Below are positions 3,954-57,154 of a stretch of DNA of 64,000 nucleotides, in pieces. Every line of letters starts with the position of its first letter. The stretch's first letter is position 1. The DNA comes from a virus. Made by a program: the position numbers and the translations under genes. The notes under the pieces were generated by a model. It did no database searches and was not told the DNA's origin. It saw nothing but the letters and a program-made list of their open reading frames with translations. The stretch lies in the IMG/VR virus record IMGVR_UViG_3300047388_000185, positions 62,001-126,000 of that record; one strand, written 5' to 3'.

Positions 3954-3963
3954 GATTTTAGGC
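3954..3963 (-). promoter_or_regulatory. Candidate late-promoter element GCCTAAAATC
   Basis: On the minus strand GCCTAAAATC lies 6 nt before the ATG of the maturation protease and overlaps the TAA stop of the HNH gene. It matches the YTAAAATMG pattern found before other virion-type genes. Confidence 0.3.
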
Positions 3964-4785
3964 TGAGACAGGGATCCAGCCTTTTGTGTGATATTCGGCA
4001 GTCCAATCAATCGCATCCAGTAGATTGTCTAGGTCGAAATGATTGAACTTCTCCATATTTTCCTCCTTAGGAATTACCTGGAGATTACCTTGGACATGTA
4101 AGCCACTGATCTGTTTTCCGTTCAGGGGTACGATATGGTCGACTTGATATGCTTTACCACTTGATCGAGTAAGTTCTCGACATGTCTTATAGATGACCGT
4201 TATCTGTTTCTTATCGGCCCAGGGCGTTGTCCGGCGCCGCTTTCTTATTTTTCTATCTCTACTATTGGCAAGGGCTTTTTCAGGAAATCTACGGTACCAA
4301 TCCTTGGCAAGTTGATTCGTCTTATCAGTTTTCTCGGGCGTGGAATAACGCTCTTCTCGGATTCTAGATAATTCAGCAGCCCAAGTACCTTCGATCATCA
4401 TCTTTTCAACCCGCTGTTGTCCATGCCACTGATTACAGTCTTGGCAATTACCATTAGCGACCCATCTCACTGTGGGATTGTGGCCTCGAGAGCACGATTT
4501 TGCCCCGTAATATCGTCGGACGCCTAAACTTAGAGCTTCTTTCTTATTGGACGCTATTAGCTCTTTCCGGCTCTCTATATAGCCAAGAGCAGTAGGTCTT
4601 TCAGTAGCAGTATGACAGTCTTGACATGTACCATTGGCGAGTATTCTTATAGCCGGAAAATGTCCATAGCAGCAGGCAGCTTCTCCGTAATATCGACGAA
4701 CCCCTAGCCTTTGGGCTTCCGCCGGATTTGATGCGATAAATTCTCCTCGACGGGAGAGGTACTCTTCGTCTCTTCCTTTCGCCAC
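3958..4785 (-). CDS. HNH homing-type endonuclease with duplicated zinc modules
   Basis: 275 aa. The C-terminal part has the HNH signature VDHIVPLNGKQISGLHVQGN followed by LQVIPKEENMEKFNHF. The N-terminal part has two copies of a module with GVRRYYG, a C-x(n)-GH pair and NGxCQDC, probably zinc-binding DNA-recognition units. It is a free-standing selfish endonuclease placed between the maturation protease and a small gene. It shares the VDHxxPLxGxxxxGxHVxxNL core with the genes at 7985-8890 and 21950-22615, so the three are paralogues. It is probably mobile by homing into sites that lack it. Confidence 0.85.
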   Translation of the reverse strand: MAKGRDEEYLSRRGEFIASNPAEAQRLGVRRYYGEAACCYGHFPAIRILANGTCQDCHTATERPTALGYIESRKELIASNKKEALSLGVRRYYGAKSCSRGHNPTVRWVANGNCQDCNQWHGQQRVEKMMIEGTWAAELSRIREERYSTPEKTDKTNQLAKDWYRRFPEKALANSRDRKIRKRRRTTPWADKKQITVIYKTCRELTRSSGKAYQVDHIVPLNGKQISGLHVQGNLQVIPKEENMEKFNHFDLDNLLDAIDWTAEYHTKGWIPVSA

Positions 4786-7980: not shown

Positions 7981-7990
7981 TATTTTAAGG
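7981..7990 (-). promoter_or_regulatory. Candidate late-promoter element CCTTAAAATA
   Basis: Minus-strand CCTTAAAATA lies directly before the start at 7975. It includes the TAA stop of the HNH gene, so part of the match could be forced by the stop codon. Confidence 0.3.
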
Positions 7991-8890
7991 GTTAAACCAA
8001 GTCCAGCCATTTACGTAGTAATCGGCGCCGTACCAGATGCCTTGCTTTTCGGCGTCTTCTTCTGTAAAAGTATTGGATTTAGCCCGATTATCACAAGCAA
8101 ACATAGGTTGGAGATTATATTCTACATGAAACCCACAGACGTCTTCTCCTTGCAATGGAACTGCGTGATCAACTTCTACTTCAGTTCCATACCTTTTTGA
8201 TAGTTGAAAAGCCTCTTTATATACTTGTCGAATGGCTTCTAAGTCCGCCCACTTTGGTGTCCGATCTAATTTCATTGATCTATATTCGGCGTCCTTTGCT
8301 CTATATTTTACAGGGTTCTCTTGACGTCGCGTTTGTCGAAGGACTCTATTGTGTTCTTTTACTTCAGGTAGTCTATTGCGTTCAATGCAGTACTGGATAT
8401 GATTTGCAACTGCTTCTTGATCTTCCCGAAAAAGACGGTAACGTTCTTTTGAGGCTTCCTGAGCTTTGGGAGTTTGACGATAGTCTCGTTTTTGTTGAAG
8501 ACTGGCTTCGTATTTTTCCGGATTTTGTTTTAATCGTTCTAGTTTCAAGCGGGCCGACTCTTTCTCTTGCTCATAAAGAAGAGGATCTGCTTTTATAAGA
8601 CTGTATCGACCTTTATGATAGTTTTGAAAATATTCTTTTGTTTCTGGTTTTTCTCGAGCTTTCTCACGACGAACAGCAGCTTGCTTTTTACTTTCAGGAT
8701 TTTGATGTTTTAAATGCGTGCATTGAACACAACTGCCATCGCATGTGTATCGAAGATTAGGGTAGTGATCAAGCTTACAGGGCCTTCCGGCCCCGTACAT
8801 TGTCAATCCTGTTTCTTTTGCTTTCGCCCTAGTTAGAACTGAAAAGTCAGTTTCGGATTCATCCTTAATTAATAAGGATTTGTACTTCAT
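7985..8890 (-). CDS. HNH homing-type endonuclease
   Basis: 301 aa. The C-terminal HNH core reads VEVDHAVPLQGEDVCGFHV, then YNLQPMFACDNRAKSNTF. The N-terminal region has a C-x(n)-CVQCTH zinc pair and a long charged helical arm rich in Arg, Glu, Gln and Tyr. The gene is clearly more AT-rich than its neighbours, a sign of transfer. It is inserted between two virion genes without breaking either. Paralogue of 3958-4785 and 21950-22615. Confidence 0.85.
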   Translation of the reverse strand: MKYKSLLIKDESETDFSVLTRAKAKETGLTMYGAGRPCKLDHYPNLRYTCDGSCVQCTHLKHQNPESKKQAAVRREKAREKPETKEYFQNYHKGRYSLIKADPLLYEQEKESARLKLERLKQNPEKYEASLQQKRDYRQTPKAQEASKERYRLFREDQEAVANHIQYCIERNRLPEVKEHNRVLRQTRRQENPVKYRAKDAEYRSMKLDRTPKWADLEAIRQVYKEAFQLSKRYGTEVEVDHAVPLQGEDVCGFHVEYNLQPMFACDNRAKSNTFTEEDAEKQGIWYGADYYVNGWTWFNP

Positions 8891-8894
8891 GTTA

Positions 8895-10802
8895 TTAAAT
8901 ACCTACGCCCTTAGGGGTCGATTTATTACGATCAAAGCCGGATCCGGCATTTGCCGTTTCCTCAAGGCGACAGACTGTATCTCCCAATGTTTTATATGTA
9001 GTTTTCACTTTTGCGATTAAGGCAAAAACATTGTCAGAATCCATACCCTCAGCTAGCTGATCGATACGAACTCTTGATAATAGCAAAGTTCTGCCAAGTT
9101 TGTCAACAGCGGCGGACAATTCAGGTAGATATTCTTTGATCATTTCGAACAGATCTGGACTGGCTAGGAGTTGTGAAATCATAGTAGCTTCAACGACTTC
9201 TGCATCACCAAGACTCACTGCATCGTTCATGGCGCCAGTAAAGACACCGCTTTGATTAACTTGGTCAGCTTGATCGTTCAAGACCCGGTCGCCATAATTG
9301 GCAATCTCAGTTTGACCGCTGTCGCCAGCCGAGGCTTTCTTCGACAGAAAGATCTTGACGTACTTGATTTCTTCGGCTTGCTTCAGGAAGTTCTGAGCTG
9401 CTTCCGGGTCAATCTGTTCGTTCTCAACGAGATCCTTGAATGCGTCGATCTTGCTGCCAAGGTAGGATGCGTTCTTCGTAAACGAGATGCCGTCATAGCG
9501 CAAGTCAAGATTAGCACCGAGGAACTGAGCCGTACGAAGATTAAGCTTATCCGAAGCCGAGTTTCCGCTTTGTTCCAGATCGAATGTGACATTCTCACCG
9601 AGGGGCAAAACAATAACATTGTGCTGGACATACATCGTATCACCGATGATTTCCATATCCGTACGCAGATTCTTCGAGCCAATGATTTGCTTAATATTTC
9701 CACTATAGGTCTTGATCGTAACGCCGATGGCACTCAGCACAACTGAGTCAACCGTGAACGGGCCCATGACGGAGCCGTCCGGCAGGAACAACATAACCTT
9801 CTCATTGTTTTCGCAGTCCTTCAGGAGCTTCGGGGGGACGTTGTTAAACAGAGCCTTCATTACACCAAGCTTGGGAACGTCGTCACCGACCTTCATGACA
9901 GGGGCTGCGGCATACGAGCCGTCTTCAAACAGAACAGTGCTGTTCGTCGGGCTGTCACGGTGATAGCTAGGCAGATAACAAGCGTGCGTAGAGCCGTCAC
10001 GGAAAAGAACGTTGACTTCCATGTTGGGGTCAACGCTTGGCTGGGTTTGGCTAACTACGCCAACGGAGTTGTAGGGTTGGTATTGAACTGCGACACGGGA
10101 GAAACCTGAGCCAGGCTTCAGAACGTAGCCGTCGCGCATGAACTGTTGGGCCATTGCTTCGTCAGCCATCGCCTTGACGTCACGGATTGAGGTCACAACA
10201 GACCAAGCTGGGGTGACGGCCATCGGAGAGACGTCGATGGAATTGGAAGCAGCGGCGCCACCGGCAGTAGCAGAACCCTTGAGAGCTGCGAAGATAGCCT
10301 TGAGGCCAAACATGGCGTCGAGGGCAGAATAGGCTGATTGCTCACCTGCCAATTTCGTCATAACAAAAGCCTGTACCTTCAGGGGGCATGCAGCCAAGAA
10401 CTCGGTCAGGCGACTGGCGGACGAATAGACGTACTTGCCAGTACGCGGCGGATTCATTAAAACGGATAGGTCCGGATTTCTGGCGACGCCCTTGGGGATA
10501 TCTTTTGCTCGGCCAGTGTTGGTCGGGGTAGCCATCATCAGACGTTCGATCGTTGTCTTTGTGAGGGGGATAAACCGGGCCTCATCTTCTAGAAAGATAG
10601 AATCTAACGGGAAAATAGTTTCGTCTTTAGCTACGACTGGGATATAGGCTACGCCCATTCCAGTACGCAACAGGAAGAGGCCTACCTGAACTCCCGTGTC
10701 ATCGATTTGATCGGTAACGTCCGAGAAGTTGAGCACGCTCGCACCAAGTTGGGGCGCTGCAGTCAGAAGCTTGGCAAGTGCGAGATCGGCGAATTGGTCC
10801 AT
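8895..10802 (-). CDS. Large virion-block protein
   Basis: 635 aa, the first gene of the minus-strand block. The middle (about residues 200-440) is beta-rich, with two similar turns VLFRDGSTHACYLPSY and VLFEDGSYAAAPVMKV that look like an internal repeat, and a third, related MLFLPDGSVMGP. The C-terminal third is helical with FLKQAEEI and LSKKASAGD. It could be a tail, baseplate or head protein; no family is recognised. A 46-nt leader starts with the CCTTAAAATA element at 10831-10840. Confidence 0.75.
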   Translation of the reverse strand: MDQFADLALAKLLTAAPQLGASVLNFSDVTDQIDDTGVQVGLFLLRTGMGVAYIPVVAKDETIFPLDSIFLEDEARFIPLTKTTIERLMMATPTNTGRAKDIPKGVARNPDLSVLMNPPRTGKYVYSSASRLTEFLAACPLKVQAFVMTKLAGEQSAYSALDAMFGLKAIFAALKGSATAGGAAASNSIDVSPMAVTPAWSVVTSIRDVKAMADEAMAQQFMRDGYVLKPGSGFSRVAVQYQPYNSVGVVSQTQPSVDPNMEVNVLFRDGSTHACYLPSYHRDSPTNSTVLFEDGSYAAAPVMKVGDDVPKLGVMKALFNNVPPKLLKDCENNEKVMLFLPDGSVMGPFTVDSVVLSAIGVTIKTYSGNIKQIIGSKNLRTDMEIIGDTMYVQHNVIVLPLGENVTFDLEQSGNSASDKLNLRTAQFLGANLDLRYDGISFTKNASYLGSKIDAFKDLVENEQIDPEAAQNFLKQAEEIKYVKIFLSKKASAGDSGQTEIANYGDRVLNDQADQVNQSGVFTGAMNDAVSLGDAEVVEATMISQLLASPDLFEMIKEYLPELSAAVDKLGRTLLLSRVRIDQLAEGMDSDNVFALIAKVKTTYKTLGDTVCRLEETANAGSGFDRNKSTPKGVGI

Positions 10803-10830
10803 GATATCCTGTTGATGGAAGTAATGCGTC

Positions 10831-23553: not shown

Positions 23554-24918
23554 ATGAGCTCGCACCATCACCCTGGCGTCGTCCACCAATCCAAAGACCT
23601 CTTCATCCCCGGCTCGCCGAACACGTCGGTTGAACACAAGAAGCTGCCAGTCGGCACGTACCTCGTTGGTATCAGCCCACAAGGCTACTACTGCGAGCGC
23701 GTCGACAACATGACGTTGCCGAAGAAGCTGTATGGCTCGATCATCCCGGCTGCAGCTCGAATCGTCAATACATTCAAGACTCGCAAGGGCAACACCGGTA
23801 CCCTCCTGTCGGGCTTGAAGGGCTCTGGCAAGACGTTGCTGGTTAAGGCAGTTTCCCTCCTTCTGCTGGATGAAGGCATCCCGACGATTATCATCAATCA
23901 GCCCTTCAGCGGCGATGCTTTCTCCCAATTCCTTGCGGCGCTGAACACTCCGTTCGTGGCTCTGCTGGACGAGTTCGAGAAGGTCTACGACGCCGATGAT
24001 CAAGAAAAGCTCCTGACCCTTCTGGATGGCGTTCATCAAGGTAAGGGCCTGTTCATGCTGACTTGTAACAAGCAACACAAGGTCGACGAGAACTTCATCA
24101 ATCGGCCGTCGCGGATCTTCTACAACCGCCATTACAAGGGTATGGAGATCGATGCGATTCGTGAACTGGCGCTCGACACGCTCAACGACAAGAAGCGCGT
24201 GGATGAAATCGCCAAGCTCTCCTCCCTATTCAATGACGAGATGAACTTCGACATGGTTCAGTCGGCCATCGAAGAAGTCAATCGTTATCCCGAGCAGAAG
24301 ATGTCCGAGCTGATGGAGATGATGAATCTTCGTCCGGCTGGAATCGATCAGCGCTATCGATATACGGCTATCTTGCAAGTAGCGGGCAAGACGTACTCGG
24401 ACGAAGGCGTGTTCCCTCGGGAGGCGGCGATCTCTATCTTCTCCTTCGCCAATTTCCGTTTCCTCGTCCGTGACGGTTTCTCCGACGAAGAGCGTGAAGC
24501 GGGTGCTGGTACGGATATCAAGGCAAAGGCTTCGATCCAAGCTGTTCCCGCCCAGGAAGTCGCAATCGGCGGTATGCAGATGGATACAGAGCAGATTTCC
24601 AAGGCTATTAAGAGGGCCAAGAAAGCCCTTAAGAAAGCCTCGGAACTGGATCCTGATGATGACGAAGTCAAGTACGATCAGAATCGGGCCAAGCTCGGTG
24701 ACGATTACGATGACGTCTGGGAAACCTGGGGGCACGACTTCCGCCACTACGGCAAGAAGCGCAACGTCAAGGAATTCACTTTTTCACATCGTCAGATGAA
24801 GGGAAGCGATCCCAAGAAGGGTACGTACACGTTCGTCTCCGACGGCGGCGCAGTACTGATTCTGACCCGAGTCGTAGAAGCTGGGATGAGAACCTCGGAC
24901 TACTACGATCTCCTGTGA
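23554..24918 (+). CDS. AAA+ ATPase
   Basis: 454 aa. Walker A is GLKGSGKT near residue 87-94, Walker B is VALLDEFEKVYD near 133-144, sensor 1 is MLTCNK near 168, and an arginine-rich segment NRPSRIFYNR follows. The fold fits a phage AAA+ ATPase of the type found next to DNA-metabolism or tail genes. The C-terminal 150 residues hold a Lys/Ala-rich helix, an acidic stretch and a beta-rich end. It may be an unfoldase or remodelling motor; its substrate is unknown. Confidence 0.8.
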   Translation: MSSHHHPGVVHQSKDLFIPGSPNTSVEHKKLPVGTYLVGISPQGYYCERVDNMTLPKKLYGSIIPAAARIVNTFKTRKGNTGTLLSGLKGSGKTLLVKAVSLLLLDEGIPTIIINQPFSGDAFSQFLAALNTPFVALLDEFEKVYDADDQEKLLTLLDGVHQGKGLFMLTCNKQHKVDENFINRPSRIFYNRHYKGMEIDAIRELALDTLNDKKRVDEIAKLSSLFNDEMNFDMVQSAIEEVNRYPEQKMSELMEMMNLRPAGIDQRYRYTAILQVAGKTYSDEGVFPREAAISIFSFANFRFLVRDGFSDEEREAGAGTDIKAKASIQAVPAQEVAIGGMQMDTEQISKAIKRAKKALKKASELDPDDDEVKYDQNRAKLGDDYDDVWETWGHDFRHYGKKRNVKEFTFSHRQMKGSDPKKGTYTFVSDGGAVLILTRVVEAGMRTSDYYDLL

Positions 24919-25282: not shown

Positions 25283-25312
25283 TTCAATAACGAAAGGTAT
25301 TTATGGTACAAG
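25283..25312 (+). promoter_or_regulatory. Phage promoter P4 (TTCAAT-18-TACAAG)
   Basis: TTCAAT and an 18-bp spacer ending ATGG as in the others, but the -10 is TACAAG. This explains the in-frame ATG at 25303, which is part of the promoter and not a start codon. Confidence 0.7.
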
Positions 25313-25346
25313 AAGATAAGGACAACTGTGTTGCTCCGACGCCCGT

Positions 25347-25361
25347 AAACCCTTACCAGGA
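25347..25361 (+). promoter_or_regulatory. Conserved ribosome-binding leader AAACCCTTACCAGGA
   Basis: Matches the CAACCTTACCAGGAG leader at 10917 and fixes the start of the next gene at 25369. Confidence 0.5.
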
Positions 25362-25368
25362 AAATACC

Positions 25369-26226
25369 ATGAACGCAAAAGCTGTTGCTGTCCCCGCCAA
25401 GTCGAAGAAGGCTCACACTCGTTCGACCCTGCGTCTCAGCGACGAAGAATACAACCAAATCGCAATCGGCCTTCGCAAGTCGAAGTTGAGTGTGAGTCCG
25501 ATCAACGTGGTCGTAATTGGTGCTCCCATCCTCAACCGCAAGTTCCCGATCTCGGAAGTCACCGATAAGCGCATCTCCAAGCTCAACGAGATCATCCGTG
25601 ACATGGATGCTGCCCATGAATCCCATGCCAAGGCTCAACTCACCGGCACCATCCCGGGTGTCAAGAAGGGTGAGACCGCCGATCTGCTGATCAAGTCCAT
25701 CGTGACGGCTGCCGTCGAAGCGGCAACGGTCAAGAACTTGGAAGGCACGCGCAAGCTGCTGCTGGCTCAAGAGGCACGATTCCAGAAGCAGATGAGCCAA
25801 GTCACGGATATCTTGGTCAAGATGTGCAGTGACTGGGGGATCGCTGTCCCCGAACTCGAAGCCCCGATGGCCATGCCGATGATCGAGGCCACAGGCCAAG
25901 TCGTCCGAGTGCCGCGTATCCTCGTCTACGGCATGCAGGCTAACCAGAAGCAACCGCTGTACGACCATGTCCGTGAGTGGGGGCTGCAAGGTTTCGCTGA
26001 CATCGACATCGCCTACAGCACGGATGCCGTCTCTACGGTCAAGCGGGGCTACGACGCGGTGATCGTCAACCGCCACTGGGTCAACGTGGACACCGCCCGA
26101 GAACTTCGCAGTCACGGCCTCAAGTACAGCGAAGTTGCCGGCTCGGCCTCGGCAGTGGAACGTCAACTGAAACTCGAACTCTTGGACTTGGCGATCTCTG
26201 CCAAACAAAGGGAAGGTCGGGCATGA
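25369..26226 (+). CDS. Hypothetical protein of 285 residues
   Basis: The start at 25369 is chosen because promoter P4 and the conserved leader lie before it; a longer frame from 25303 would start in the promoter itself. The N-terminal 30 residues are basic. A helical centre follows, then an alpha/beta domain (VPRILVYGMQANQKQ ... YDAVIVNRHWV) that resembles a nucleotide-fold sheet, ending in a helical tail. A phage regulator or DNA-associated protein is possible. I do not recognise a family. Confidence 0.65.
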   Translation: MNAKAVAVPAKSKKAHTRSTLRLSDEEYNQIAIGLRKSKLSVSPINVVVIGAPILNRKFPISEVTDKRISKLNEIIRDMDAAHESHAKAQLTGTIPGVKKGETADLLIKSIVTAAVEAATVKNLEGTRKLLLAQEARFQKQMSQVTDILVKMCSDWGIAVPELEAPMAMPMIEATGQVVRVPRILVYGMQANQKQPLYDHVREWGLQGFADIDIAYSTDAVSTVKRGYDAVIVNRHWVNVDTARELRSHGLKYSEVAGSASAVERQLKLELLDLAISAKQREGRA

Positions 26227-26714
26227 GCACGGCCGAGGTGATACCAATCGCCTCGGCCAATGCGAATCCTTCTCTTTGCACGCCGTGCGGGGGGAAGTGT
26301 TGTTCGCATATGCCCGGAACGATGTTTCCTCTCGAACTGTCGAAAACTCTTGACCGCGAAGAGATCTTCATCAAGGTTCATGACCTTCTTTTGACGGGGA
26401 GATGGGCCATTGATTGGTGGGAGGGTGACCCGGAAATAGAGAGTCATTGGGATGGTGTCCCTGCCTATTATCTCCGTCCGGCAACGAAGCGGATGCAGGG
26501 CTACTGGGCTGATGCAAGCTACGGCGGAGACTGTACCTTCCATGCTGCAACTGGCTGTGAATTGTCCGAAGTAGAACGGCCGACGGACTGCAAGACACTG
26601 ATTCCACATGAGACAAATTGCCATCAACCGGAGAGCTGGAGCAAATTCTCTGGTATAATGGCATGGTACCCATTTCGCTCGGTCCTCCGAGCCATGCTTC
26701 AATACGAACCTTAG
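26223..26714 (+). CDS. Cysteine-cluster protein (YkgJ-like metal-binding)
   Basis: 163 aa. CTPCGGKCCSHMPG near residues 17-30 matches the CxxCxxxCC cluster of small zinc/iron-chelating proteins (YkgJ type). Later cysteines (DCTFHAATGC, DC) would complete a metal site. It is coupled to the upstream gene by ATGA overlap. Role in the phage is unknown. Confidence 0.6.
   Translation: MSTAEVIPIASANANPSLCTPCGGKCCSHMPGTMFPLELSKTLDREEIFIKVHDLLLTGRWAIDWWEGDPEIESHWDGVPAYYLRPATKRMQGYWADASYGGDCTFHAATGCELSEVERPTDCKTLIPHETNCHQPESWSKFSGIMAWYPFRSVLRAMLQYEP
26652..26659 (+). promoter_or_regulatory. Possible extended -10 promoter inside gene
   Basis: GGTATAAT with TG upstream (TGGTATAAT) lies 65 nt before the next gene, but no TTCAAY -35 element is present at 18 bp, so this may be weaker or host-type. 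Confidence 0.4.
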
Positions 26715-26723
26715 GGATATAAC

Positions 26724-27566
26724 ATGAAAAAGCTCTTCGTTCTTCTGTTGCTCGCCTTCGCTTCGGCATTGGCAAGTGCAGCCGAACCCATCTGTAACTG
26801 GGATCGTCCCGGTTTCAACAAGTACCAAGGTAAGCCGGTCGACGCTTTGCGGGACTATACTTTGAACTACCAAGTTCGAGCAGTCCTTCAGGTCAAGATA
26901 CGAAATCAGATGTATGATGACGTTGTCGAGATCCGTCGTGATGGAATCAAAGGCTCAACTGGCACTTTCAGCAATTTAAGAGGAATGCATTATGGTCAAG
27001 GATCGTATTGTCCCGGCAGTGTCGACACGGGAAACTGGACTGAGACACAAGTGGAGCGTGCCTTGGTCTACTGTGTCGCTGAGGTTTGTGTTGCTGTGCC
27101 CACGATATGCAACAACGTCTCTCTCATTGACCGAGACACGCCGATCGGTATCTCACCTTCGGCAGGGAGTTCCCCAACGGGTGGAGCTCCGCAGTCTAGC
27201 ATCAATCCGAGCCCGGAACAACCTGGATCTGAACTTGGAGCGGCCGTATCTCAAGAAGTTTCGAGATCGGATTCGCTCGTGGAACAGCCCGCTGAAGAAG
27301 GACCGGGATCCGAACTATCTCCAGACGTGGTTCCCGGCGGATTCGGAGGCTCGGGAGGTGGCTACGCAGGCGGAGGTGACTTCGGAGGTGGCGGCGTCGT
27401 GCTACCAGGACGTTCAACGTCTCCCCCCATCTGTCCCGGACTTAATTGCGGATTGAATCCTCCAGTGATCACGCCAATCCCAGCTGTCCCAGAAATTCCC
27501 GAATGGATTTTGATCGTTGCGGGACTGATTTGCTTTGCATGGCGGATGAGTACGAGGCAAAAGTGA
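26724..27566 (+). CDS. Secreted MHFG/PEP-CTERM-like protein
   Basis: 280 aa. Residues 1-20 form a signal peptide (MKKLFVLLLLAFASALASAA). The mature part starts EPICNWDRPGFNKY, continues with VRAVLQVKIRNQMYDDVVEIRR and SNLRGMHYGQGSYC, and resembles the MHFG family of PEP-CTERM proteins that I know from Burkholderiales. A Gly/Ser/Pro-rich linker follows, then a C-terminal VPEIPEWILIVAGLICFAWR with basic RQK, which is a PEP-CTERM-like sorting tail (PE motif, one helix, Arg/Lys end). The tail suggests processing by a host exosortase and display at the cell surface. Recognition is from memory, not a search. Confidence 0.7.
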   Translation: MKKLFVLLLLAFASALASAAEPICNWDRPGFNKYQGKPVDALRDYTLNYQVRAVLQVKIRNQMYDDVVEIRRDGIKGSTGTFSNLRGMHYGQGSYCPGSVDTGNWTETQVERALVYCVAEVCVAVPTICNNVSLIDRDTPIGISPSAGSSPTGGAPQSSINPSPEQPGSELGAAVSQEVSRSDSLVEQPAEEGPGSELSPDVVPGGFGGSGGGYAGGGDFGGGGVVLPGRSTSPPICPGLNCGLNPPVITPIPAVPEIPEWILIVAGLICFAWRMSTRQK

Positions 27567-27568
27567 GC

Positions 27569-27597
27569 AAACGGGGCCCTAAACCCCGTTTCTTTTT
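27569..27597 (+). terminator. Intrinsic terminator
   Basis: AAACGGGG-CCCTAAA-CCCCGTTT followed by CTTTTT. Confidence 0.75.
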
Positions 27598-27615
27598 GAA
27601 TACAAAGGAGTCAAC

Positions 27616-28518
27616 ATGCGAAGTGATGTGAATAAGGTTTTGACGGAGTGCTACAAGGAAGGCACTGGCCGACATTACCAATTCCCCCGTCAAACAATGG
27701 ACAAGCTCTTCGATGAGACAGGCGGTAAGATTGGTATGCGTCAGGTGCATGTCAAAACCCCAAAGCATGGGACTAAATCCTTTGGAGAGAACCTTGCTTA
27801 TCTTCCTAGGTTTTTGGCTGCCAACGTCGGCCGTAAGTGGGATGATATCTACTCCGAGATCGCTGCGACTTTCGATAAGCGCAGCACGGTCAACGCTCAC
27901 ATCTTCCAGCATCTGTTCGACTACTTCGTGCCGGCCCACGAGGTGATCTTCATTAGAAACCGGCCACACGCAATACACATCTATTCGCGTCAGGCCTATC
28001 CAATCTATTCCGGGGGATATCGAGGTCTTTACGTAGATCCTCGCAGCGGCATCCTGAAAGAGGGGATGAAGGAGTCGAATAAATCTAAACAAACCAAGGC
28101 CCAAGTAGCGGCCAAGAGTCTTCTGGAATTCAAGCGCATCTTATCTCCTCTTGTTGAGCTACACAAATTGGATGATGGGATGTGGTACGTTTTCGAACTG
28201 AAGAAGATCCCGTCCGAACGCATCGTCGAGTATGTCTACGCCCCGCCTTTCCCTAAAGATTTCGACAGTCAACAGGAATGGTATAAGGGAAAGAAGGAGT
28301 TCGATCTGTCGTCGAAAGAGGTCAAGACTGCTCTAGGTCGGCGTGTGGAAAAGGCGGTGGAGTTCAAGACGTTCAACAACAAGATCGAATCGAATCGTCA
28401 GTCTCAGCTTGTCAATCGCCCATACAATCGAGACACCCGTAGTTATGGTGTCGCCACCCATTACTACGCCTCCATGCGCAGCGCTTCCAAGAAGGAATTG
28501 CGGACAGTGGGGCTTTAA
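27616..28518 (+). CDS. Hypothetical protein of 300 residues
   Basis: ATG after AAAGGAGTCAAC. Predicted mixed alpha/beta with GRKWDDIYSEIAATFDKRS and a Tyr-rich loop (YSRQAYPIYSGGYRGLYVDP). The C-terminal third is basic and helical. I do not recognise a family. It lies upstream of the RNA ligase in the same operon. Confidence 0.65.
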   Translation: MRSDVNKVLTECYKEGTGRHYQFPRQTMDKLFDETGGKIGMRQVHVKTPKHGTKSFGENLAYLPRFLAANVGRKWDDIYSEIAATFDKRSTVNAHIFQHLFDYFVPAHEVIFIRNRPHAIHIYSRQAYPIYSGGYRGLYVDPRSGILKEGMKESNKSKQTKAQVAAKSLLEFKRILSPLVELHKLDDGMWYVFELKKIPSERIVEYVYAPPFPKDFDSQQEWYKGKKEFDLSSKEVKTALGRRVEKAVEFKTFNNKIESNRQSQLVNRPYNRDTRSYGVATHYYASMRSASKKELRTVGL

Positions 28519-28526
28519 GGATTTCA

Positions 28527-29093
28527 ATGAAAAAGATCATGTCACTGTTTCAGCGCAACTACGAAGGCAACCGCAAAGTTCGTGACCAAGTCACTCCTGG
28601 CGCCGAATGGGTTACCGCCGGAGAGGGAGTCGCCACCCGAAAGTGGGATGGCTTGGCCATCCTCATCAAGGATGGGGCCATTTTCAAGCGATACGATGCC
28701 AAGACGGGTCGTACCCCTCCGGCTGGATTCGTGCCTGCTCAGAACCTGCCGGACCCGGTCAGCGGGCATTGGCCTGGCTGGGTTCCTACGGATGGGCCGG
28801 ACTCGAAGTTGATCCGAGAAACTGTTGCTGCGCATCCCGGAGAAGTCACGGATGGAACCTACGAAGTTTGCGGGCCGAAGATTGGCACTCGTCACGGCCC
28901 CAATCCAGAAGGCTTGTCGCAGCATATCATCGTGCCACACGGTAAAGACCTTCTCGAAGACTGTCCTCGGACCTACCCGGAGCTGATGGCCTATCTGAAG
29001 GACCTGGGCATCGAAGGAATCGTCTGGCACCATGAAGACGGTCGTCGGGTGAAGATCAAGAAGGTAGACTTTCCATACCAGGAGAAAGCATGA
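28527..29093 (+). CDS. RNA ligase-like nucleotidyltransferase
   Basis: 188 aa. Motif I is ATRKWDG (Lys near residue 39 would carry AMP); a YEVCGPKIG segment fits motif III; EGIVWHH fits motif IV near 162; VKIKKVDF fits motif V. The short length suits the core nucleotidyltransferase domain of phage RNA ligases, which repair tRNAs or RNA nicks after host defence cleavage. No separate kinase-phosphatase gene is visible in the window. It is coupled to the next gene by ATGA overlap. Confidence 0.75.
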   Translation: MKKIMSLFQRNYEGNRKVRDQVTPGAEWVTAGEGVATRKWDGLAILIKDGAIFKRYDAKTGRTPPAGFVPAQNLPDPVSGHWPGWVPTDGPDSKLIRETVAAHPGEVTDGTYEVCGPKIGTRHGPNPEGLSQHIIVPHGKDLLEDCPRTYPELMAYLKDLGIEGIVWHHEDGRRVKIKKVDFPYQEKA

Positions 29094-29413
29094 CACACAT
29101 TCGAACAATCGGCGAGAAGCTGGCCAAGAAGGGTTTCAAGTTGATCCTCCTCCAGCAAGGTCCAAATACTCAGCTTGATCTTGGCTATGACAAAACGCTA
29201 GCCACCGGAGAACTACTTCAACTAGAGCTTAAGCAGGCTTCAACGTTCTATCATTCGACGGTCACTTGTACGGCCGAGATGTCAAAGTGGTTTGGCCGCG
29301 AAAAGAGGAGTGTCAGGATCGAACTCATTGGAGCTGACGTAGAGGAGAGAACCGTGCTGATGTTAGAAGACCGTCTTCGTCCCCTATGGGTTGTTATTGC
29401 TGCCGAAGCTTGA
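29090..29413 (+). CDS. Small hypothetical protein
   Basis: 107 aa, starting MTHIRTIGEKLAKKGFKLI. Alpha/beta pattern, no known motif. Its 3' end overlaps the convergent RNAP beta' gene by 20 nt. Confidence 0.6.
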   Translation: MTHIRTIGEKLAKKGFKLILLQQGPNTQLDLGYDKTLATGELLQLELKQASTFYHSTVTCTAEMSKWFGREKRSVRIELIGADVEERTVLMLEDRLRPLWVVIAAEA

Positions 29414-30539
29414 TTGGCGTATTGACCGTCACAGTTCCAGCTTCCAGAGCTTTCAGCACGTCAGCTTCAGAGTCAAACTCTTGCACTTCCTGTTTCATAT
29501 CAGGGTCCGTTAGGTTCATGGAGCCAATAATGGCTTCATGTCCTGGCGCAACCAAAGAAGCTCCTAAGCCCTTACGGTAGTCGAACGCATGTTGTTCGGG
29601 AAGGAGTTTCTTTTTAGCTTCTTCAATCGCTTCTGGGGTAATAGGGGTATGAATGGTCATAGCATCACCGTCGAAGTCACCTGCATAGAGTGGCAAGTGT
29701 AGGGGGTTAACGCCAAGCGTCTTACCTTGAATCGGTACTGGAAAATGCGCGGTGATATTTGATTGCATCAGCGTTGGGGCACGATTGGCAATGATCGGAA
29801 TAGTCTTGATCAACTTGTTAAAACTAGTCTGGGCAGCGGGAGTCCGAGCTTCTACTGCTTTCTTTGCATCTGGATAGGAATAGCCATTACGAGCTAAATC
29901 ACGAATGATGTGGAACTTGTACATGGTCCAAATCATGTCGATGGGTACGGCCATTTCATTGAAGCCGAGATTAGGCTCAGCGTAGATCGTGGCACGAGCC
30001 GAGAAGTCTTGTTTCTTCTTCAAAATCTTGGCTTGAAAGAACCCACCTTTAGGACCCTTCTCTCCGGCAATCTGCTGTAGAAAACCCTTCAACTGAGCTC
30101 CCCGAGCTGTACCCTTCAAAGCTGTACCAAGACCGAAGATGGCCTTGACGCCGTTATATGCACCAGCACGCTCATCTTTGACGTCATCATTTTCAGCTCC
30201 TTCTTCGAGAAGACCCTGAAGCCCCTGATTAACCAGGATGTGATTCTGATATAGGACGTTGACGTCAGGGTATTCAATGCGATTGCCAGCCTGAGTGATA
30301 GGCGGCCGAGCCATCGGAGGAATCACTGGAATATTGTGTAGTATGAAGGAGTCAGCAGGAGTCTCCCCGTTCTTCTTCAGTCCAGCCAAGTACTTAATCT
30401 GCTTGACCATCGTATCCCGCTTGGAGATAGACTTCGTAGCCAAGATATCTTTCTTCAAGTGCATTAGTTGCTGATCAATGTCAACAGCATCTAAAAGTTC
30501 TTGGAAGGCATGGCCTGAGGTCTTCAGTTCTGTGGTCAC
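29394..30539 (-). CDS. Phage RNA polymerase beta' subunit, N-terminal part
   Basis: 381 aa from GTG, directly after the beta stop (GTGACC). It carries the RpoC core: a rudder/bridge-like KGPKGGFFQAKILKKKQDF, then IIANRAPTLMQSNITAHFPV, and the catalytic loop PLYAGDFDGDAM near residues 281-292 with three Asp that hold Mg2+. It ends shortly after the DFDGD loop. The trigger loop, zinc and jaw parts are encoded at 16843-18669. The N-terminal clamp zinc finger of bacterial beta' is absent or lost. It is a phage polymerase subunit in the portal operon. Confidence 0.9.
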   Translation of the reverse strand: MTTELKTSGHAFQELLDAVDIDQQLMHLKKDILATKSISKRDTMVKQIKYLAGLKKNGETPADSFILHNIPVIPPMARPPITQAGNRIEYPDVNVLYQNHILVNQGLQGLLEEGAENDDVKDERAGAYNGVKAIFGLGTALKGTARGAQLKGFLQQIAGEKGPKGGFFQAKILKKKQDFSARATIYAEPNLGFNEMAVPIDMIWTMYKFHIIRDLARNGYSYPDAKKAVEARTPAAQTSFNKLIKTIPIIANRAPTLMQSNITAHFPVPIQGKTLGVNPLHLPLYAGDFDGDAMTIHTPITPEAIEEAKKKLLPEQHAFDYRKGLGASLVAPGHEAIIGSMNLTDPDMKQEVQEFDSEADVLKALEAGTVTVNTPIKLRQQ

Positions 30540-33500
30540 TTAATTATCCTTGTCAAACACGTCGTCTTCGATTTCTTCATCTTCTGGTTCATCCGCAATA
30601 TCGGGACGATTCTTGAATTCATTTACTTTGAAACTACGAATCTTGGTCCCGGTCGTGATGTCATGAAGATGGAATGTGTCACCTTCTTTTTTAACTCCGA
30701 CAGAGCCAGTTGCAATACCCTCGTACTCTTTAGTTGAAAGACCAAGTACAGACTTTATTGGCTTCTCGAAAACTGGATTAGCGACGGGCTCAGCTAAGTG
30801 GTAATGGGTCCAGTTAGTTCCACGTAGACCACCAGTTGTAATGGTATCAAATAAGCCACCTTTATCCGGCTCCAAGTTACGGGCATTGATCATCTCGCCG
30901 TTGCGAATTCTACCATGAGATTGACTAAGAATATCTGAATCAGTCATAGGAGAAGCTGTGAGTTTCCCATCACGCAAAGTCGTCTTGATGCCAGACGCGG
31001 TCAAGTAATCGATGAACTTATTCGTAGCAAAGGTTGTCTTGGGCTTGGGTAAAGGTTCACCGCGTTGGAACTTCGCCCAGAAGTCTTCATTGGACTCCGA
31101 CTTAGTCGTGGCAATTTCTTTTAAGTTCTTACGGGCATTAGAGCCAAGCAAACCTAAGAATTCCATGTAACCGATACTCTTTGAGCCTTCTTCACCACCC
31201 TTAGTCGGCTGATTGACATTGTCATATCCACCAGTATTACGGGCAGACCAGTTCTGGTCGGAGGTCTTGTAGAGCTTGATGAAGTATTGCGGTCCCGCCA
31301 GGACTTGACCCAGTGTCTTCTTGGTCGTCGGATCTACGAGCTCATCTGTATCTGAAATCCCATGCTTAGCCAATTCTGCCTTCAATTCAACAACGTTCGA
31401 GCCCTTGTCGAAGTTATGAACTAAGTACGGCGAACCTTTAACCTGAGCAATCTTGGCCGCAGCAGTTTCCATCAGTTGCCCGAGATTCACTCGAGATGTG
31501 ACAGAGGCGGGATTAAGCAGAATATCTACAGGTTTGCCAGTCTCTTTCTTATAGGGCATGGATGTATCCGGAAGAATCAAAGACACGATCCCCTTGTTGC
31601 CATGCAGACCAGTCAGCTTATCTCCGACTTCAAGTGGCTTGACTGAGCGTAGAATGAAACGAACTTGGCGAGTAGCAGTGTGCGCGTCAACGACCTTGCC
31701 ATCTTCATCGTGTTGCCACAGACCAACGACCTTCTTCCAGGGACGAATCAGAGTTTTGTGCATACGACCAAGAGCCTTATCTTCTGCAGTTGGCTCTTTC
31801 TTCTCGAGCACAGCGTAGCAGGGATCTCCGTGATGCAGGACTGAGCCTACCTTGGCATAGCCATTGTCGTCCAATTTATCTAGTTGTTCTTTGGTGAATT
31901 CACCTGGGAACCAACGGGCAAATAGTGCTTTCTTGGCCGTCGTGATATCCGTCACGTCGTAGTCAATCTTATATGCGTGATGTGAGGATAGGGATTCTGC
32001 ACAAGATTGGGATAGGACTAATCCGTCCTCGTGGTTATATCCCTTCCACGGGATGTAAGCCACTTCCAGGTTTTTGCCCAAAGCCAAGACTCCGTCCTTT
32101 GTGTAATTGGACTCGAACAACTGGTGTCCCGGGGTAACATGGTCGCCGACCTTAACCAATGGGGTCTCATCGTCATGGAATCCTTTCATGTTAAAGGGTA
32201 GATTTTTCACAGCTTTGACTAGCACAGCTTTGCCTCCGCCCGTGGGTTGAATGGTCACGCCATTACGGTCAGCCTTAATAACTTCCCCGTCTATCGGGGC
32301 AACTGTTCCTGTAACGCCGGCAAGTTGCTTGACGAAGGGGATACCTTGAGCATTCGTAGTCTGAACGAGAGGGACTTCTCGGTTCACCAAAGACAGGGCC
32401 TGGGGGATGGCCTTGCCAGCCATAGTCAAACGGCCTGGATGGTTCGAGTTTAAGAAGGGCACGAGATTAGTCGTGACCGTATACATGTCAGTCGAATCAT
32501 AGAGCCAGTAGTCAACCTTGTCCCGAGCGATCTGACCGAGTTCCCCTTTGATCTGAGCCTGAACGGGATCTTCCCCGTCTTGGTTCGGAAAACCGACGAT
32601 CTTGGTCATCATCTCGTGGACGGAGATGTTTCTGACTTTGCCAGCCTTATCCTTTACTCTGGCGTAGAGATTTCCCTCAGCGTCTCGACTAGCTGATACA
32701 GTAAAGCGCTGGTCGATACCAGCATGCCCAGATTCAGGTGTCCGACTAGGATCGATAATGCCAAGATGGCTAGGATCGATGTCTCGAGCTCCCATGGGTA
32801 CGCCGCGATCTGACGCGATACCGCCTTCGCCTTGTCCAAGCACAGTAACTTTAGCAACATTTTCGATAGACTCCAGAGGATTGGTTTCAGACGGGGTTGT
32901 GACCAAGTTCGAGGCCACGATGTAATTAGAATAGAACTTAGAGAAAGGCTTGGTCGACAGATTACCCTTGAGCTTGGGATCTGTCTGCGGAATCCGGTCA
33001 AGCTCCCGACCCAAACGGTTCTTAATCAGCTTGACAACTTGGTGCTCCTTGGCAAAACGGGTCGTCAAGAAGTCAGGTAGATTCTGGACTCGCTTGAACT
33101 GCAGGCTATCTCGGTTATCTTCCTGACGTTCATGCCGACGGGTCTGAATCAGATTGCGCATGGCAAGCAGGATCGCGTCCTTCGTCACGGTAGCGATAGG
33201 CTGACCGAGAGTAGACGCAGTTGTGCGAGTATTCAGCTTCGAGCTCTCAAGGCGTTCCTTTAGCTGATGCGCCATAACTTCCGGTGAAGCTCCGACGACC
33301 CGCTCACGGGAATCAACAAGCTTCAAGTACATATCCTTGAGGTACTTGTCTTCTTTCCCAGTAACAGCTTTTTGATTGGCTTCCCAAACATCTGCTGGGA
33401 TATAAGAAGAGATCTCTTTACCACTTACTCCGAAAACCTTTGTCAGCAAAGCACCAATAGGAATTTGAGACGTGCTGTTACCCGGAATCAAGTAGAACAT

Positions 33501-34043
33501 GTACGTTTCGGGATCGAGCGTCAAGTGTAAAGATGCACCGGAGCCAGTATTGAAGTGGGTCTCGAGTTCGCCTGTCTCCTTGGTACGGGTATATACGCCG
33601 GGGAGCAATTGGAGTTGATTGGCTGCAGCGTAGTTGTTTCCCTTATACAGCAGGGTATGCTTTCCGGTAATGTGAAAAGAATCCATCAAAGAGAAGCCTG
33701 GTTGTTCATCTACAACTTGGCCCGTAGTCTTATCGATCAGCTTCAAGTCAGCCTTGATCGGATAAGTCAAACTACGACTTTCCAGGATGGCCTTCTTTTC
33801 ATCTTCGTGGGTGTAGTCCTTGCGCTCAGCACGGAAGTTCTCAGCGGTCAGAATGTAGTTGCGGCCTTCGACTGGAAACTGGGTGGCTAGACCAGAGATC
33901 AACGCGGCATCAACCTTGTTATTCATGTCTGCAGGGGACGAGAAGATACGGGTCAACTTAGGACGGGTTACTGCATCGCCTACTGCAGGAATAGCAGCCT
34001 GAGAAACGGCTACGGTTTCATCAGCTCGCTTAGTAAACTTCAT
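30540..34043 (-). CDS. Phage RNA polymerase beta subunit, full length in one gene
   Basis: 1167 aa from ATG at 34043, overlapping the upstream stop (ATGA). A longer frame from 34136 exists but overlaps the upstream gene fully. RpoB landmarks in order: GYNHEDGLVLSQSC near residue 669, GDKLTGLHGNKG near 805-816, and MPYKKETGKPVDILLNPASV then RVNLGQLMETAAA near 830-860. In bacterial beta the last parts hold DNA and the active site. The N-terminal half is weakly conserved. Beta is intact here, while beta' is split. The N-terminus MKFTKRADE fits the hydrophobic-x-K-x-A pattern. Confidence 0.9.
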   Translation of the reverse strand: MKFTKRADETVAVSQAAIPAVGDAVTRPKLTRIFSSPADMNNKVDAALISGLATQFPVEGRNYILTAENFRAERKDYTHEDEKKAILESRSLTYPIKADLKLIDKTTGQVVDEQPGFSLMDSFHITGKHTLLYKGNNYAAANQLQLLPGVYTRTKETGELETHFNTGSGASLHLTLDPETYMFYLIPGNSTSQIPIGALLTKVFGVSGKEISSYIPADVWEANQKAVTGKEDKYLKDMYLKLVDSRERVVGASPEVMAHQLKERLESSKLNTRTTASTLGQPIATVTKDAILLAMRNLIQTRRHERQEDNRDSLQFKRVQNLPDFLTTRFAKEHQVVKLIKNRLGRELDRIPQTDPKLKGNLSTKPFSKFYSNYIVASNLVTTPSETNPLESIENVAKVTVLGQGEGGIASDRGVPMGARDIDPSHLGIIDPSRTPESGHAGIDQRFTVSASRDAEGNLYARVKDKAGKVRNISVHEMMTKIVGFPNQDGEDPVQAQIKGELGQIARDKVDYWLYDSTDMYTVTTNLVPFLNSNHPGRLTMAGKAIPQALSLVNREVPLVQTTNAQGIPFVKQLAGVTGTVAPIDGEVIKADRNGVTIQPTGGGKAVLVKAVKNLPFNMKGFHDDETPLVKVGDHVTPGHQLFESNYTKDGVLALGKNLEVAYIPWKGYNHEDGLVLSQSCAESLSSHHAYKIDYDVTDITTAKKALFARWFPGEFTKEQLDKLDDNGYAKVGSVLHHGDPCYAVLEKKEPTAEDKALGRMHKTLIRPWKKVVGLWQHDEDGKVVDAHTATRQVRFILRSVKPLEVGDKLTGLHGNKGIVSLILPDTSMPYKKETGKPVDILLNPASVTSRVNLGQLMETAAAKIAQVKGSPYLVHNFDKGSNVVELKAELAKHGISDTDELVDPTTKKTLGQVLAGPQYFIKLYKTSDQNWSARNTGGYDNVNQPTKGGEEGSKSIGYMEFLGLLGSNARKNLKEIATTKSESNEDFWAKFQRGEPLPKPKTTFATNKFIDYLTASGIKTTLRDGKLTASPMTDSDILSQSHGRIRNGEMINARNLEPDKGGLFDTITTGGLRGTNWTHYHLAEPVANPVFEKPIKSVLGLSTKEYEGIATGSVGVKKEGDTFHLHDITTGTKIRSFKVNEFKNRPDIADEPEDEEIEDDVFDKDN

Positions 34044-34342
34044 TCTGCATCCTCGATGAACTTGATAAGATAATACATAGTTTCCAAGAAGACATAGTTC
34101 TTTTCCTCGATCAGGTATACGCCTTCTCCACGCCAAGCCTTGGTTTGAATACGTTCCAGCTCGGACATGTCCACTGGATCGTTCATGTTGAACTTTTGGA
34201 AGCGTACCCGCTGCTTAGCCGGATCGATGATCGTAGCCTTCGGGCGGGTCATGCCTGGAAGTGGATTATCTTTGGTGATAGTAGACGTAGATGCAGCTCG
34301 AAGAGACGAGCCGTCTAAATTTCCAATTGGAGTAGTTGCCAT
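34040..34342 (-). CDS. Small protein between portal and RNAP beta
   Basis: 100 aa. The first 45 residues are Thr/Ser/Pro-rich and probably extended; the rest forms a small helical domain ending LIKFIEDAE. It is translationally coupled to the beta gene. No family is recognised. Confidence 0.65.
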   Translation of the reverse strand: MATTPIGNLDGSSLRAASTSTITKDNPLPGMTRPKATIIDPAKQRVRFQKFNMNDPVDMSELERIQTKAWRGEGVYLIEEKNYVFLETMYYLIKFIEDAE

Positions 34343-56752: not shown

Positions 56753-57074
56753 ATGTCGAGGATCCTGTAATCTAAAAAAGACCACCTCCCGAATATGGGG
56801 CGTAGTCAGCAAAGACGGCAATCGTCTGCACCGACTCACCTATTCGGAGGATGTGGCTGAACTCTGTGCATCGTACGGCGACTACGCTGTCAAACGGTTC
56901 AGGCTCAGGCGGGGTGTCCCGCTAGAACCTGGACAAGAGTCGTCAACTGGTATCTATGTTGTATGCACACTGGCTTGCGCCAGTCCGTTGCGGGCCACGT
57001 TGATCAAGGGTATTGCGCAAACGCACTACGACGAGCACAGTCGAGTTATCTATGAAGGTCATTTGGAGCCCTAG
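56753..57074 (+). CDS. Gene with an apparent +1 frameshift near its start
   Basis: ATG at 56753 has a good ribosome site (AAGGAAAACACC) but the frame stops after five codons: ATG TCG AGG ATC CTG TAA. The +1 frame is then open to 57074, and gives NLKKTTSRIWGVVSKDGNRL and a further 80 residues. AGG ATC CTG TAA resembles the prfB site (SD-like bases, 3 nt, slippery codon, stop). Alternatives: a base-call error, or a separate GTG start at 56853 giving 73 aa with the mini-frame as leader. Its end overlaps the 5' end of tRNA-Arg (CCT). Confidence 0.4.
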
Positions 57075-57137
57075 CTCAGTGGCAGAGCAATCGATCTCCT
57101 AATCGATAGGTCCCGAGTTCGATCCTCGGGGGCTTCA
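57065..57137 (+). tRNA. tRNA-Arg (CCT), unusual anticodon loop
   Basis: Acceptor GGAGCCC/GGGCTTC (one G-T pair), D arm GCTC/GAGC, T arm CCGAG/CTCGG with TTCGATC. Stem ATCGA/TCGAT leaves an 8-nt loop TCTCCTAA (or a 6-nt loop on a 6-bp stem) instead of 7. No CCA is encoded directly after the discriminator. Reads AGG if functional. Confidence 0.7.
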
Positions 57138-57154
57138 CACCAAGTAGGCACACT

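Follow-up and report, generated by a model that had tools for sequence, protein, structure and literature searches.

A gene at positions 26724-27566 (+) of the window, a 64,000-nucleotide stretch of viral DNA (bases 62001-126000 of a 192,737-base, or 192.7-kb, virus record), was found to encode a 280-residue PEP-CTERM-like protein of the MHFG family. The family is a known one, of which this gene is a divergent member; its setting appears not to have been reported before. The explanation that we favor as a whole, giving it somewhat better than an even chance, is that this is a phage accessory gene whose product is exported and, by the exosortase route or as a periplasm-facing anchor, modifies the host envelope.

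The gene, its product and its phage

The open reading frame begins with ATG and ends with TGA, exactly where an earlier sequence-only reading had placed it, and the features named in that reading are present in the sequence. Membership in the MHFG family had also been proposed there, and a search with NCBIfam NF038119, an 'equivalog' model for the MHFG family PEP-CTERM protein, bore this out: residues 22-278 aligned to model positions 2-259/260 with E 3.5e-45 and 155.3 bits. Given the curated cut-off of 100 bits, this match is not a chance one. Searches of Pfam and PHROGs gave no family for the protein.

The N-terminus reads as a Sec-type signal peptide, MKKLFVLLLLAFASALASA (26724..26780, +), followed by AE; it has a KK pair (two lysines within residues 1-12), a long hydrophobic core and an ASA-A end. 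Sequence inspection, a hydropathy of 3.24 across 10 residues and a helix predicted by AlphaFold at residues 2-17 agree with the signal peptide of the sequence-only reading, and export of the protein to the host envelope is likely. The other landmarks of that reading were found as well, namely the start EPICNWDRPGFN at residues 21-32, the MHYG motif at residues 88-91 and a Gly-rich run at about residues 205-225. The MHFG domain, delimited by alignments, AlphaFold and the cysteine count, comprises residues 24-138 (26793..27137, +) and contains MHYG and all five conserved cysteines (24, 96, 117, 122 and 129). In the AlphaFold model of the whole protein, residues 22-138 reached a pLDDT near 95, and after them come a linker predicted to be disordered and, at 260-279, a helix. 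The linker, residues 139-255 (27138..27488, +), is rich in Pro and Gly, is not conserved and has a pLDDT mostly below 55. The domain modeled alone with 76 sequences gave a pLDDT of 94.6 and a pTM of 0.87, with two helices in a mostly beta fold.

Fold searches in the PDB with the whole model and with the MHFG domain alone, and in BFVD with the whole model, returned no significant match. A resemblance to SH3/KOW-like barrels was set aside, as the alignments were weak with Z below 3. No solved or viral structure matched convincingly, and none pointed to a biochemical function. Exactly five cysteines were present in 105/106 MHFG domains, the single exception being that of the sister phage G383, from which C117 and C122 are both absent. 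In the model these two residues flank a tight beta turn, as judged from secondary structure only. Their joint loss in this one case and the layout of the strands make a C117-C122 disulfide likely.

The MHFG gene resides in a phage, as the sequence-only reading had held: the record has a Terminase_6N match, and a portal gene, a phage RNA polymerase, an ATPase and an RNA ligase are among the neighbors. The gene is part of a six-gene insertion (25303..29413, +), flanked on one side by the RNA polymerase gene and on the other by a 71-aa gene and an ATPase gene (phrog_2376, 23554..24918, +, E 3.9e-81); its limits were set by comparison with phages Arash and D69 and by running window genes in tblastn against L131 and L153. 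In sister phages the 71-aa gene and the ATPase directly adjoin the RNA polymerase gene, and the insertion is absent there. A Cys-rich 163-aa ORF with no family match (26223..26714, +) ends 9 bp upstream of the MHFG gene. Downstream are a 300-aa gene (27616..28518, +), whose product has relatives near the MHFG genes in phage loci L105, L111 and L101 (33%, 32% and 26% identity, respectively), and an RNA ligase gene (phrog_14301, 28527..29093, +, E 3.4e-81). Family matches and the comparison with Arash and D69 identified the phage RNA polymerase beta/beta-prime N-terminal part as two ORFs (29394..34136, -), which abut in frame as TAA-GTG, and the portal protein, a phage hallmark (34360..36243, -). 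Elsewhere in the window, ARAGORN gave a tRNA gene at 57065-57138 an irregular anticodon of two bases ('cc'), with Rfam also detecting a tRNA there, and the proteins encoded at 3958-4401 and 7985-8890 both match one 181-aa protein of phage contigs L104/L109.

A hairpin resembling an intrinsic terminator, followed by CTTTTT, lies directly after the MHFG stop codon (27569..27591, +); terminator-like sites in the window overall are no more frequent than in shuffles. In Proteobacteria, a sigma-54 promoter or Prs box is usual upstream of the genes for PEP-CTERM/exosortase substrates. By eye, no TTTACA-type (Prs) box was seen upstream of the MHFG gene. A sigma-54-like -24/-12 element with 2 mismatches occupies 26664-26679, within the preceding ORF and 45 bp before the gene; such sites are not commoner in the window than in shuffles, and this one may be due to chance. 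Base composition gave no signal of a recent capture, the GC content of the gene being 0.537 against a mean of 0.516, a difference of 0.4 SD.

The window phage is related to Salmonella phage Arash (181 kb; 54% identity in the RNA polymerase) and Vibrio phages D69, D181 and D148 (187 kb; 49%), and the portal and helicase agree. It differs from these phages in that they lack the MHFG gene, and Arash and D69 carry beta and beta-prime as one fused ORF of about 1525 aa. Among 26 IMG/VR relatives recognized by their RNA polymerase protein, only the sister phages G383 (72 kb, RNA polymerase 69% identical) and G405 (170 kb, 68%) have an MHFG gene; Arash, D69 and every relative whose RNA polymerase falls below 68% identity lack it, many of these records being fragments. 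The MHFG genes of G383 and G405 are located about 24 and 33 kb away from that RNA polymerase site, and their proteins are only 32-35% identical to that of the window. Given the variable insertion, the distant positions in the sister phages and this low identity, the behavior of the MHFG gene is that of a mobile accessory gene.

The MHFG family in bacteria and in other viruses

In bacteria, 120 genome places matched the family and 80 loci were kept, of which all that could be named (by titles and tree labels) belong to Burkholderiales or other beta-proteobacteria. At about 49/80 of these the MHFG gene is flanked by uvrA and a SWIB-type gene, both named from sequence motifs. That so many loci share one chromosomal neighborhood led us to reject the idea that the bacterial copies are mainly prophage genes; the neighborhood itself is an ordinary chromosomal one and offers no functional clue. 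The window protein is like the products of chromosomal NF038119 genes (in Roseateles, Pelomonas, Paucibacter, Mitsuaria, Rubrivivax, Massilia and Janthinobacterium) in domain, length, linker and tail position, with 36-48% identity between the MHFG domains, and unlike them in its phage location, its PEIP in place of PEP, its long branch and its lack of SWIB/UvrA neighbors.

Exosortase was detected in 55/60 carrier genomes (21/22 and 34/38 in two sets), the five negative ones all being metagenome-assembled, compared with 115/300 genomes of the order Burkholderiales at large. A Fisher test gave p ~3e-15, a value that the kinship of the carriers makes too optimistic, though the direction is clear. 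NF038119 scored above its cut-off in only 1/300 genomes of the order, which is the center genome of that set. The sequence-only reading had linked the gene to exosortase-bearing Burkholderiales. This link holds for the family; for the host of the window phage it was not borne out by any convincing DNA match, since a search for CRISPR spacers or shared DNA between 399 Burkholderiales genomes and 19.9 kb of phage returned only short, low-score matches.

Single-sequence scans of phages, plasmids and IMG/VR with the window MHFG protein gave no matches, and the family came to light with a degenerate DNA pattern for the C..C..VPT.C.N region and then with an alignment. These pattern and alignment searches disposed of the idea that the gene is unique to this phage: it is present in at least 25 other IMG/VR records, 23 found by alignment plus the two sister phages. 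Terminase_6N was present in 9/23 tested MHFG virus records, including the window record and those of 297, 342, 350 and 369 kb; with terminase genes present, the 297-369 kb records are phages and not stray chromosome. The sorting-signal model TIGR02595 scored above its cut-off in 19/23 MHFG virus records versus 0/14 control genomes. In the set of 29 records related by RNA polymerase, the only matches came from the two with an MHFG gene whose product has a canonical tail.

Besides the MHFG protein, several phages have a second PEP-CTERM protein, to which it is not related. The gene for this second protein lies directly beside MHFG at 9311-9967 of L105 (a 350-kb record) and beside MHFG at 9402-9974 of L116, and another is found at 17685-18491 of L103; non-MHFG PEP-CTERM proteins also occur in the record of L101 and in L128. 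By eye, the L105 pair (9311-9967 and 9995-10816) is situated between nicotinamide-phosphoribosyltransferase-like and NAD-kinase-like genes, and ClpX-like, HSP20-like and ClpS-like genes surround MHFG at 6737-13304 of L119 (a 369-kb phage record). No exosortase (PF09721) was found in the 23 viral records, so that the host must supply the enzyme. That phages encode several PEP-tagged proteins but no exosortase is a wider pattern, and one of greater interest than the window copy alone.

Recognizable signal peptides are missing from at least five phage homologs (L099, L100, L108, L118 and G405) and probably from L117; the start of L108 is unsure, as its contig ends close to the MHFG gene. These homologs start within a few residues of the MHFG domain, and mostly their start codon overlaps the preceding gene. 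Starts of signal-less phage copies lie at 9989 in L099, L100 and L117, at 1897 in L118 and at 9051 (-) in L162. In the family tree, which is built on few columns and has long branches, the window copy among them, all five cysteines and nearly all key residues are retained on the long phage branches.

The altered tail and the probable route to the envelope

The C-terminal end of the window protein (27489..27563, +) consists of PE at residues 256-257, a hydrophobic helix at 260-279 and the basic end WRMSTRQK, and it aligns with the PEP tails of the homologs. Its motif is P-E-I-P-E-W, with P-E-I-P at 256-259, instead of PEP[ST]. The definition of a PEP-CTERM signal (PMC1569441) asks for a Pro-Glu-Pro that is nearly invariant, along with a helix and a basic end; the window tail has the last two and lacks the Pro-Glu-Pro. 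Thus, the PE-helix-Arg tail described in the sequence-only reading is there, whereas PEIP was not matched by the PEP-CTERM model TIGR02595. The tail alone gave only 17 bits against the tail part of NF038119, a model that the protein as a whole still passes well.

Displacement of the second proline is not confined to the window copy: it was also found in phage L111 (PELP), phage L100 (PDIP) and bacterial L019 and L023 (PEAP), and four of these five copies (window, L111, L019 and L023) cluster in the tree, with weak support. Three exosortase matches are present in the genome of L019 and one in that of L023, which indicates that the P-[ED]-x-P variant is kept where exosortases exist. A PEIP-type tail may therefore still be processed, and exosortase processing of the window copy is plausible. 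A host-wide PExP tag in other proteins was rejected, as the pattern occurs at chance level in five host genomes; when its matches there were read out, only MHFG genes carried it in a true tail.

If PEIP is no longer a sorting signal, the product would be a plain periplasmic protein anchored in the inner membrane that needs no exosortase and acts there, with the timing of lysis or the exclusion of superinfecting phages at DNA entry as examples of its possible task. That TIGR02595 is blind to the window tail, whereas sister phages G383 and G405 have canonical PEP tails, speaks for such an anchor, as do the retained helix and basic end; but the P-[ED]-x-P copies of L111, L100, L019 and L023, the last two in genomes with exosortase, and the conservation of the remainder of the tail argue against it, and we consider it possible but rather doubtful. 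Loss of the near-invariant PEP with all its surroundings retained would also be expected of a decoy, an altered tag that binds the host exosortase uncut and blocks the sorting of host surface proteins during infection. However, PEP is retained in most phage homologs (19/23 records) and a decoy would have no need of a conserved MHFG domain, which makes this reading far-fetched.

The gene could also be a passenger copied from a host and without a role for the phage, given its changing genome position, its location in a variable insertion and the low identity even among sister phages. This seems improbable to us, because the five cysteines and nearly all key residues have been retained along long phage branches and the family recurs in many unrelated phages.

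Under the favored explanation, the gene is of the accessory, 'moron' type and belongs to a lytic-type tailed phage of the 190-kb class; the host Sec system would export its product by means of a cleavable signal peptide, and the compact 115-residue MHFG domain would fold outside the cytoplasm. The C-terminal helix would first hold the protein in the inner membrane with its basic end inside. In MHFG relatives, bacterial and viral, the PEP-CTERM tail is expected to be recognized and cut by the host exosortase; once released, the MHFG domain with its flexible linker would reach the outer surface or the exopolysaccharide layer. We think that the phage protein follows this route or else, its tag having been altered to PEIP, remains in the membrane as an anchor facing the periplasm. 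By either route the envelope of the infected cell would be modified, and the likeliest use to the phage would be a change in the adsorption or entry of competing phages or in the extracellular matrix. The sequence-only reading had also conjectured that the protein may coat or shield the infected cell, a suggestion on which the findings do not bear either way. Counted against the favored explanation are the failure of TIGR02595 to match PEIP, the signal-less phage homologs, the lack of a convincing DNA match to a host, the lack of a fold match indicating function and the uninformative chromosomal neighborhood of the bacterial genes.

Phages are known to encode envelope-acting accessory proteins, such as superinfection-exclusion membrane proteins. 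The window protein is like these in coming from an accessory gene and in being putatively exported or attached to the membrane, and unlike them in that no sequence or fold match to any of them was found. With the substrates of the PEP-CTERM/exosortase (EpsH) system (Haft et al. 2006, PMC1569441) it shares the signal peptide, the C-terminal Pro/Glu motif, the hydrophobic helix and the basic end. It differs from them in lacking the near-invariant PEP, in belonging to a phage with no exosortase and in being encoded in a phage operon, not by a lone gene that forms its own operon behind a large intergenic region.

Significance for phages and for the MHFG family

Full-text searches of non-subscription papers found no report of phage-encoded PEP-CTERM/exosortase substrates. 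We give about even chances to the broader proposal that PEP-CTERM-tagged proteins are encoded in sets by several lineages of large Burkholderiales phages and are displayed on the infected cell via the host exosortase, with MHFG as the commonest cargo. If true, viruses would here be making use of a bacterial machine that sorts proteins to the surface by their C-terminus. In the literature, PEP-CTERM proteins are tied to floc and matrix formation, which makes a matrix or surface role the natural guess. Phages that use the exosortase route could reshape the surface or the matrix of Burkholderiales that form matrix and flocs, and the PEP tag would then serve as a host-assignment clue for metagenomic phages. 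A family conserved between phages and bacteria also provides a handle on the role of the MHFG domain.
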